Origin: Bactericera cockerelli | Lineage: Eukaryota > Arthropoda > Insecta > Hemiptera > Triozidae | Direction of reading: 5' to 3' | Assembly (NCBI GenBank): GCA_024516035.1 | Contig: CM044964.1 | Coordinates: 10,817,624 to 10,881,623, forward strand | Length of the DNA stretch: 64,000 bases | Shown: positions 61,322 through 64,000 of the stretch, in pieces | Position numbering within the stretch: the stretch's first letter is position 1 | Layout of the letters: every line of letters starts with the position of its first letter | The notes under the pieces: model-generated | What the model was told of the DNA's origin: nothing | Databases searched by the model: none | What the model saw: the letters and a program-made list of their open reading frames with translations, nothing else | Translations under genes and position numbers: made by a program

Positions 61322-62453
61322 TATTCTTATCTATCTATGTAGTTAGTGGTCTATATTCTCACCTATCAATGTAGTTAGTGTCTAAGTTCTCACCTATCAA
61401 TGTAGTTAGTGGTCTATATTCTCACCTATCAATAGTTAGTGGTCTATATTCTCACCTATCAATGTAGTTAGTGTCTAAGTTCTCACCTATCAATGTAGTT
61501 AGTGGTCTATATTCTCACCCATCAATGTAGTTAGTGTCTAAGTTCTCACCTATCAATGTAGTTAGTGGTCTATATTCTCACCTATCAATGTAGTTAGTGG
61601 TCTATATTCTCACCTATCAATGTAGTTAGTGGTCTATATTCTCACCGATCAATGTAGTTAGTGGTCTATATTCTCACCTATCAATGTAGTTAGTGGTCTA
61701 TATTCTCACCTATCAATGTAGTTAGTGGTCTATATTCTCACCTATCAATGTAGTTAGTGGTCTATATTCTCACCTATCAATGTAGTTAGTGGTCTATATT
61801 CTCACCTATCAATGTAGTTAGTGGTCTAAATTCTCACCTATCAATGTAGTTAGTGGTCTATATTCTCACCTATCAATGTAGTTAGTGGTCTATATTCTCA
61901 CCTATCAATGTAGTTAGTGGTCTAAATTCTCACCTATCAATGTAGTTAGTGGTCTATATTCTCACCTATCAATGTAGTTAGTGGTCTATATTCTCACCTA
62001 TCAATGTAGTTAGTGGTCTATATTCTCACCTATCAATGTAGTTAGTGGTCTATATTCTCACCTATCAATGTAGTTAGTCGTCTTTATTCTCACCTATCAA
62101 TGTAGTTAGTGGTCTATATTCTCACCTATCAATGTAGTTAGTGGTCTATGTTCTCACCTATCAACGTAGTTAGTGGTCTATGCTCACCTATCAATGTAGT
62201 TAGTGGTCATGTTCTCACCTATCAATGTAGTTAGTGGTCTATATTCTCACCTATCAATGTAGTTAGTGGTCTATATTCTCACCTATCAATGTAGTTAGTG
62301 GTCTATATTCTCACCTATCAATGTAGTTAGTGGTCTACATTCTCACCTATCAATGTAGTTAGTGGTCTATATTCTCACCTATCAATGTAGTTAGTGGTCT
62401 ACATTCTCACCTATCAATGTAGTTAGTGGTCTACATTCTCACCTATCAATGTA
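61322..62453 (-). repeat. 32-bp minisatellite built from a BCS1 exon end plus its 5' splice site (first block)
   Basis: About 35 head-to-tail units of 32 bp (some 30-31). On the BCS1 strand each unit reads ACCACTAACTACATTGATAG (Thr-Thr-Asn-Tyr-Ile-Asp-Arg up to AG) followed by GTGAGAATATAG. TTNYIDR is exactly the residue string expected just before [10 protein letters not shown] of the exon at 60636, in the matching codon phase (AG|G). So each unit holds 20 nt of exon end (including the sensor-1 Asn) and 12 nt of intron with a good donor. The left end decays into degenerate units (61322-61350). The source exon itself should lie beyond 64000. Confidence 0.93.
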
Positions 62454-63773
62454 TTTGAATATTTGAATATTTTATTTATTTATTTGAAAAGGTATAATTA
62501 ACATGTTGGTACACTATTACAAATTACACCTTATTGTACGAAATCTTAAAAAATATAGATATTATGATAAAATAATACAATATAAGAATTGTTATGACAA
62601 GTCAAGAAGAGGATTCAGGTTTGATTCAAGTCATCCAAGCATTTTCTAAATGTTCTTGGGTTGAAAAAATCAATATCCTGTGAGAGCAATACATTTCCTA
62701 GAGTAAAGATATGATTCCAAGGATTTGTTTTGTGCCTTGGTGGTATAAAAATTTCTTTTTGGTTCCGTGAGGAGGACACTCGAACTTTAATTTTGAAGTT
62801 ATCTAAAAATGATGTACATAGAGCTAGATTGTGTATGTTATTAAACAAAAAAATATATATGTTCATATCTCGTCTACAACTAAGTGAAGCAATATTAAAA
62901 TATTTGCATATTCTAGGATATGAGTAAAATATTCTATGTGTTAGAAAACGATCATACAATGTCCCTACAAATGTTTTCTGCACTCTTTCGAGTTTATTTA
63001 CATTCGTTTTATGAAGTTTACCAAATATAGGGGACCCATATTCAATTCTACTTCTAATGAAGACATTAAATAAATGTATCATAATTACAGGTGAGTTAAA
63101 CTGACCACAGAGTTTTAGTAACATGCCAAACCTGGAGAAACATTGGTTGGTTGTTTTACAAATTTGTTTGTTGTAAAGAAGTTTTGAATCCAACAAAAAC
63201 CCCAGATCCATTACTTCATACACTCGAGGTATATTGGTACCTGACACAGTGTATTGTGCCCGTTCATAGCTACTTTTTCTAGTGAAAGTAATAACTTTAG
63301 TTTTAGAGACATTTATAGCCATATGGTTTTTCTCATACCAACTGACAACACGATTTATATTTTCCTGAAGAACGGTAGATGCTGAGTTTTCAGGGCTGTA
63401 ACCAAGGAACAACTTCAGGTCATCAGCAAATAATAGTGCCCTACAAGATAGATTTGAGACAAGATCGTTTATAAATATTATAAACAGAAGCGGTCCCAAA
63501 TTACTCCCTTGAGGAATTCCTGAAAGGATTGGATAATCAGAAGACATGACATTATTCACTTTGACACGAAATGTGCGCTCGCACAAGTATGAGCGGAACC
63601 ACTTTACTAATATAGGAGAAACTCCATATTTTTCCAACTTCACTAGCAAAAGGCTATGATGCACGACATCAAAAGCTTTAGCCACATCAAAATGAATGGC
63701 ATCAACTTGCTGTCGGCACTCAACGAAAGAAGCCGTGTAGCTGAGAAAATCCATGATATTTGTACAATTTGTA
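62454..63773 (-). mobile_element. 5'-truncated non-LTR retrotransposon inserted in the BCS1 minisatellite
   Basis: The element has one long open frame on the minus strand and an AAATAAATAAATAAA-rich 3' tail at its low-coordinate end. Both flanks are units of the 32-bp minisatellite, so it landed inside the array. The 5' end is truncated: no endonuclease, and the reverse transcriptase begins just before motif A. The junction bases (TGTA at both ends) are too short to call a target-site duplication. The absence of stops over 379 codons argues for a recent insertion. Confidence 0.9.
62615..63754 (-). CDS. non-LTR retrotransposon reverse transcriptase, partial
   Basis: A 379-codon open frame. 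Residues 20-35 hold motif A (FDVAKAFDVVHH), residues about 80-98 motif B (SGIPQGSNLGPLLF), and residues about 108-115 the catalytic FADD (LLFADDLKLF), followed by a thumb region (NVSKTKVITF, DLGFLLDSKL) and a C-terminal Leu/Phe/Asn-rich part. This is the layout of Jockey/CR1-group LINE reverse transcriptases. The N-terminal endonuclease and the first RT motifs are missing, so it is a dead-on-arrival copy despite the intact frame. The first Met is simply the first in the truncated frame, not a native start. Stop at 62617-62615. Confidence 0.92.
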   Translation of the reverse strand: MDFLSYTASFVECRQQVDAIHFDVAKAFDVVHHSLLLVKLEKYGVSPILVKWFRSYLCERTFRVKVNNVMSSDYPILSGIPQGSNLGPLLFIIFINDLVSNLSCRALLFADDLKLFLGYSPENSASTVLQENINRVVSWYEKNHMAINVSKTKVITFTRKSSYERAQYTVSGTNIPRVYEVMDLGFLLDSKLLYNKQICKTTNQCFSRFGMLLKLCGQFNSPVIMIHLFNVFIRSRIEYGSPIFGKLHKTNVNKLERVQKTFVGTLYDRFLTHRIFYSYPRICKYFNIASLSCRRDMNIYIFLFNNIHNLALCTSFLDNFKIKVRVSSSRNQKEIFIPPRHKTNPWNHIFTLGNVLLSQDIDFFNPRTFRKCLDDLNQT

Positions 63774-64000
63774 CAGTTAGTGGTCTATATTCTCACCTAT
63801 CAATGTAGTTAGTGGTCTAAGTTCTCACCTATCAATGTAGTTAGTGGTGTATATTCTTACCTATCAATGTAGTTAGTGGTCTATATTCTCACCTATCAAT
63901 GTAGTTAGTGGTGTATATTCTCACCTATCAATGTAGTTAGTGGTCTATATTCTCACCTATCAATGTAGTTAGTGGTCTATATTCTCACCTATCAATGTAG
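63774..64000 (-). repeat. 32-bp BCS1 donor minisatellite, second block (continues past the window)
   Basis: About seven further units of the same 32-bp repeat, separated from the first block only by the LINE at 62454-63773. The array reaches the window edge at 64000, so its full length and its junction with the real upstream BCS1 exon cannot be seen. Confidence 0.93.

Follow-up and report, generated by a model that had tools for sequence, protein, structure and literature searches.

The window analysed here, a stretch of 64,000 nucleotides (C10:10817624-10881623) from the Bactericera cockerelli genome (565 Mb, 1032 contigs), holds on its minus strand the final two BCS1 coding exons, preceded by part of a 4313-bp intron, and in that intron lies a long tandem array whose units repeat the end of the preceding exon together with its 5' splice site (Table 1). 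The lid domain of the protein is recognised as PF25426 (AAA_lid_BCS1, 1.5e-17), and the nearest BCS1 protein found, that of the psyllid Cacopsylla melanoneura, is 85% identical over 99% of a 199-aa query and carries no insert across the exon junction. The working acceptor at 60636 (C10:10878259), 0.69 kb outside the array, fits both the codon phase and BCS1 homology. When the 199-aa query was searched against the genome, four exon stretches matched at this locus only, and the other six hits, 30-40% identical, look like other AAA proteins. The single TGA within the match to the parent exon reflects the match overrunning the donor into GTGAG, and the exons further upstream were recognised by eye only, among open frames. 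In the part examined, the gene thus looks open and present in a single copy. A pseudogene is unlikely, since the last four coding exons read in frame without a stop and the search matched BCS1 nowhere else. Elsewhere in the window, open frames on the minus strand at 808-3623 resemble, by eye, adenylation-domain (AMP-binding) exons; they contain VLYTSGSTGIPKG, which we take to be an adenylation-domain motif, and a 78-bp duplication at 1803-1957 lies shortly behind the apparent donor of one of these exons.

Table 1. Features of the BCS1 locus and exons abutting donor arrays on contig C1 (positions without a contig name are those of the window; a slash marks the splice border).
Feature	Position	Strand	Details
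BCS1 parent exon, 118 nt	C10:10882690-10882573	-	acceptor CTCCTTTCAG; end ...CTCTTCATG ACCACTAACTACATTGATAG/GTGAG
Array, BCS1-proximal part, units 31-37 of 73	63775..64000	-	32-bp array, 7.1 copies by Tandem Repeats Finder; continues past the window to C10:10882592
5'-truncated LINE, 3' part	62454..63774	-	inside one array unit, between CCACTAACT and ACATTGATAGG
Array, BCS1-distal part, units 38-73	61322..62453	-	32-bp array, 35.6 copies by Tandem Repeats Finder; last unit at donor position 61330
Remaining host intron, array to acceptor	60637..61321	-	acceptor TCTTCTTGCAG
BCS1 penultimate coding exon, 136 nt	60501..60636	-	starts by completing (R), ends ...FADK
BCS1 last coding exon	60090..60203	-	VLAAGQ...HLIWE-stop
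AREL1 exon array locus			27.7 bits, without Pfam match
CSN2 exon array locus			70.4 bits
CREB exon array locus			pKID, 6e-11
LRP-type LDL-receptor exon array locus			identified by homology
ACAP exon array locus (L039)			49.8 bits
Dscam Ig exon array locus, two copies			119.5 bits
CHD/Mi-2 exon array locus (L045)			weak, E 0.0014, below Pfam cut-off
Short exon, two copies (array loci)			nothing above Pfam cut-off
L041 exon array locus			no Pfam match
L036 and L042 exon array loci			too short for homology search; L042 signal-peptide-like by eye

An earlier note, made from the letters of the window, had placed a minisatellite of BCS1 donors at 61322-64000. That array is real, with 43 donor positions in the window when read unit by unit (7 + 36), but it is not continuous, 62454-63774 being a LINE that the note did not mention, nor does it end at 64000. 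Thirty further units lie beyond that point, as far as C10:10882592, which gives 73 in total, a count that takes in both unit 38, which the LINE interrupts, and the last unit, 73, which has lost its donor. Spacing is mostly 32 bp, and 30-31 bp in a few units. The note had also proposed that each unit combines the end of an exon with its own donor, and had named the search for the parent exon past 64000 as the test of this. The exon found there, just upstream, ends in ...MTTNYIDR with AG/GTGAG, as predicted, and its last 20 nt together with the start of the intron constitute unit 1 of the array. The predicted codon phase also holds, since the next exon completes the arginine of TTNYIDR, and the stretch is identical in mouse Bcs1 (6u1y, 91.9 bits). 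Because the parent exon supplies unit 1, the phase fits and the 20-mer occurs at this locus only, the exon-derived reading is right.

The donor is kept in nearly every unit. GTRAG follows the exon-like part in 72 of the 73, and AGGT is present in 70, units 63 and 67 having CGGT and GGGT and unit 73 having AGAT (it reads AGATAAG, at donor position 61330). The exact exon-end 20-mer occurs in 62 units, GTRAG following directly each time, and 47 units are identical to the consensus; these figures point to recent homogenisation. Unit 1 itself departs from the consensus in its intron part, with AACTTAG in place of AATATAG, a variant also seen in unit 36 and, in a 31-bp form, near the far end of the array. 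With units 38 and 73 set aside, variants are concentrated in the five final intron positions of the unit (6 distinct states over 5 sites, against 11 over 27 elsewhere), a post hoc and marginal result (one-sided p 0.04). No claim of selection on unit positions is made from this weak excess of events.

A degenerate form of the 20-mer, ACYACATTGATAGGTRAGAA, was matched exactly 65 times when all 565 Mb of the genome were searched, every time at the BCS1 locus, and its backward control has no match across the same 565 Mb, so that the array is not due to chance. A dispersed satellite is ruled out, since the degenerate 20-mer is confined to this single locus and the array is flanked by the exon at one end and by other intron sequence at the opposite end. 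The array might in principle still be an artefact of assembly. The LINE, about 1.3 kb long, splits unit 38 without loss of unit bases, and a reverse-transcriptase domain (RVT_1, E 1.5e-20) is encoded in its open frame; no clear target-site duplication was seen around it by eye.

To see what each donor would yield, the exon was joined in silico, at every one of the 73 donor positions in turn, to the two exons that follow. Donor 1 (C10:10882572) alone gives read-through to the BCS1 C terminus, and all 72 other positions (71 with an intact GT) lead to a stop straight after TTNYIDR, just as had been foreseen for any donor but the first. Calculated for five of the 72 downstream positions, this stop lies 164 to 3751 nt ahead of the last junction, and under the usual 50-nt rule for nonsense-mediated decay a distance of 164 nt or more exceeds the threshold. 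It would appear, then, that splicing uses the first donor, the sole one giving a correct message, and that the 72 downstream positions act as decoys, any use of which would produce one and the same truncated message (...TTNYIDR-stop) that nonsense-mediated decay would be expected to remove. The decoys are not weak by prediction. For 69 of the 73 units the estimated energy of pairing with U1 is -9.5 kcal/mol, and for 72 it lies between -8.3 and -9.5, falling to -2.7 in the last unit, where the donor is lost, and two other BCS1 donors score -7.5 and -6.8. As the copies are not weak sites by this estimate, correct splicing would have to rest on position, through exon definition or the order of synthesis. 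Counting against use of the first donor is the behaviour of duplicated 5' splice sites in vitro, where the intron-proximal copy is sometimes favoured.

The immediate in-frame stop at all 72 downstream positions, with two more exons to follow, lends itself to a reading in which a constant proportion of transcripts is spliced from downstream donors and lost to nonsense-mediated decay, the number of units setting the dose of BCS1. A precedent of sorts is human IFI6, in which, according to PMC4526556, two downstream repeat units are used as donors. However, the periods of the other arrays described below are 0, 1 or 2 modulo 3 and not all of them add a stop (the 39-bp Dscam unit, by reading, is one that does not), so that a poison role is not a general rule, and such regulated splicing is considered very unlikely.

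Any repeat of AG/GT could by its sequence also allow splicing from a donor to the AG of a later unit, which would remove whole units and restore the same donor, shortening the intron stepwise and making wrong choices self-repairing. Most units do contain a branch-like ACTAAC motif, an AG and GTGAG, with ACTAAC about 12 nt before the AG when the consensus is read. Yet there is no polypyrimidine tract, the sequence before the unit AG being 56% pyrimidine compared with 67-89% at three measured acceptors of the BCS1 gene, and single steps of 32 nt are too short for splicing; recursion of this kind is hardly to be expected. A separate array, at C1:27821973-27822820, is built of units of about 22 bp, CCCTTGCAGAGTRAGT, most of which have a pyrimidine-AG acceptor-like motif beside a donor-like one, and on that pattern it is a candidate for zero-length-exon or recursive splicing.

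Minisatellites are abundant in this genome. A 200-kb sample of C10 (L011-L030) contains 34 arrays with periods of 12-100 and 5 or more copies, or 170 per Mb, and the window contains 10 such arrays, two of which are the BCS1 array. Among the 34 arrays of the sample, none has AGGTRAG in its consensus. Two other repeats in the window may be recorded. At 41057-43208 a compound minisatellite begins with a 28-bp unit in 25.6 copies and continues with nested 18/27/65/108/309-bp repeats, AGGTRAG being absent from the consensus units checked, and at 9305-9523 a 27-bp repeat of 8.1 copies is 100% identical throughout and would be either very young or converted.

Donor motifs occur in tandem across the whole genome far more often than scrambled versions of themselves. 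Taking as a tandem triple a motif that occurs three times at about 15-45-bp spacing, 17934 of 184040 AGGTRAG sites (9.7%) start a triple, compared with 4116/175588 (2.3%) for the backward control GARTGGA, 5021/142967 (3.5%) for AGTGRAG and 5196/163803 (3.2%) for GARGTGA. For CAGGTAAG the figures are 1494/19704 (7.6%) and, for its backward control, 116/13139 (0.9%). Donor motifs are thus found in triples 2.8 to 8.6 times as often as same-letter controls, a range to be read with two qualifications, that triples count units and not arrays, so that a few long arrays weigh heavily, and that the controls are matched in letters and not in location, exons being GC-rich and perhaps seeding more arrays on that account. 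The acceptor motif TTKCAGR shows no excess of triples genome-wide (2224/389356, 0.57%, against 1935/332101, 0.58%, for its backward control), although this comparison is diluted by the many TTKCAGR sites that are not real acceptors. The donor arrays could in principle be ordinary minisatellites, some of which have chanced upon an exon border in a minisatellite-rich genome without any bias towards donors, and both the density of 170 arrays per Mb and the variety of other units agree with this. It is nevertheless an unlikely account, though far from negligible, given that the donor motif exceeds all three letter-matched controls, 8.6-fold in the case of CAGGTAAG, and the acceptor motif shows no such excess.

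The 17 arrays listed on C1 (7 for AGGTRAG and 10 for CAGGTAAG) were taken up individually, the 5' flank of every one being fetched and read, and 13 of them, representing 11 distinct exons, directly follow an open frame that resembles an exon and is preceded by an acceptor-like site. The BCS1 array is therefore not a one-off case. Homology supports seven of the 13 exon-end loci, in six genes, and an eighth, CHD/Mi-2, weakly (Table 1); five have no such support, their assignment being based on the open frame and the acceptor by reading. Four of the listed arrays have no exon directly upstream, namely L034, where none was seen, L046, which is unclear, L047, which is of low complexity, and L044, in which the LRP unit recurs as a second segment some 6 kb further downstream. 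At three exon-end loci among the 13 (L039, L041 and L045; ACAP, L041 and CHD) a foreign stretch separates the exon's own donor from the remaining array, and these interruptions resemble that of the BCS1 array by its LINE. The sequence inserted at L041 and L045 appears by eye to be the same. Rough scaling from the arrays listed, which cover C1 only in its early part, suggests that donor-motif arrays in the genome number of the order of a thousand.

The account favoured here, and considered probable, is that these are exon-end minisatellites which are seeded preferentially at donors and tolerated because the first donor, being defined by its exon, still splices. At BCS1 the amplified segment would have been one of 32 bp, in which 20 nt from the exon end are followed by 12 nt from the intron start (AG/GTGAG...), and its head-to-tail multiplication would have produced the 73 units extending from the end of the exon into the intron. 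When a duplication spans a donor in this way, the exon and its first donor would stay intact and every copy would be intronic, whereas a duplication spanning an acceptor would bring copies into the message. This difference may explain the survival of donor arrays and the lack of an excess of acceptor arrays. It does not explain why donors exceed neutral motifs, which tolerance by itself could not bring about; a bias in seeding must be assumed as well, and duplications would accordingly be expected to begin preferentially at donors or at GC-rich exon ends.

A different explanation of the same excess is that the arrays have been selected as platforms at the intron start on which many U1 sites bind U1 snRNP, suppressing premature polyadenylation (telescripting) or speeding up exon recognition, with copy number tuning BCS1 and other genes. 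The excess of donors over letter-matched controls without one of the acceptor motif, together with the strong predicted U1 pairing retained by the array donors, would be accommodated by such a function, as would the suppression of polyadenylation by U1 that is the subject of PMC3826338, which speaks for the general mechanism. On the other side, the minisatellite background is high, variants exceed expectation outside the exon and donor positions only weakly and in a post hoc comparison (one-sided p 0.04), and the extent of the array differs widely between two copies of Dscam. Selection for U1 binding is on balance decidedly improbable. A broader version would have 5' splice sites at the intron start amplified in hundreds of genes, through duplication targeted to donors by way of splicing or transcription, the resulting arrays serving as U1-binding platforms that tune splicing or shield long, transposon-filled introns from premature polyadenylation; this combination must be regarded as quite unlikely.

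The extent of an array changes between close copies of a locus. The Dscam locus is present twice on C1 with flanks 95.9% identical, and its listed CAGGTAAG triples cover about 0.12 kb in one copy (C1:23557233-23557357) and about 0.94 kb in the other (C1:24848057-24849000). An exon encoding KSLFSS is likewise present twice on C1 (491392-491996 and 1305091-1305468) with different array layouts. Either pair may represent unpurged haplotypes or duplications.

If donors have indeed been amplified in hundreds of genes, which is an extrapolation from short lists, the genome would offer a natural experiment on the choice that the spliceosome makes between many near-identical donors within one intron, and a handle on why tandem duplication favours 5' and not 3' splice sites, a bias of relevance both to the growth of introns and to their gain through AGGT duplication. 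There may also be a practical consequence in errors of gene models, as an annotation choosing the wrong donor truncates BCS1.

Neither genome-wide amplification of donors nor a psyllid or insect case was found described in the literature searched, which lay mostly outside subscription journals. The origin of introns from tandem arrays was reportedly treated by Zhuo in 2007. For human segmental-duplication genes, PMC2812944 describes internal tandem repeats at exon-intron boundaries in recent primate paralogues, with new introns. The likeness to the present arrays lies in tandem repeats at exon borders, which in those genes alter splicing; the difference is that here the copies are intronic, the excess concerns donors and not acceptors, and the genes involved are conserved ones. 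Tandem AGGT duplication is an established route of intron gain, PMC4974935, PMC3443670 and PMC2891723 covering the Rogers model and the cases of ATP2A1, fission-yeast 24-bp repeats and potato RdRp. BCS1 shares with these the tandem AG/GT copies near a splice border, but its intron is not bounded by repeat copies on both sides. The working acceptor is found beyond the array, which has thus lengthened an existing intron instead of delimiting a new one; in potato, moreover, it was the acceptor side that the duplication spanned (first intron / second exon). The closest parallel is IFI6 (6-16/G1P3), for which Turri, Cuin and Porter are said to have reported in 1995 a minisatellite providing several donor sites in one transcript, reportedly 26 repeats of 12 bp at the exon-intron border, the 12-bp unit keeping the frame and adding residues. 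That a minisatellite supplies several splice donors in this human gene is stated in PMC4526556, and with it and the known AGGT duplications the claim that no such case had been described falls away. In both genes the repeat units carry the 5' splice-site consensus (GTRAG in 72 of the 73 BCS1 units) and the array, in IFI6 reportedly, begins inside the exon and runs into the intron. BCS1 differs from IFI6 in that the unit is 32 bp long and repeated 73 times, that use of a downstream donor would end translation immediately, and that other genes of the genome show the same arrangement. The donor minisatellite itself is already known; what looks new is its scale and its recurrence across the genome.
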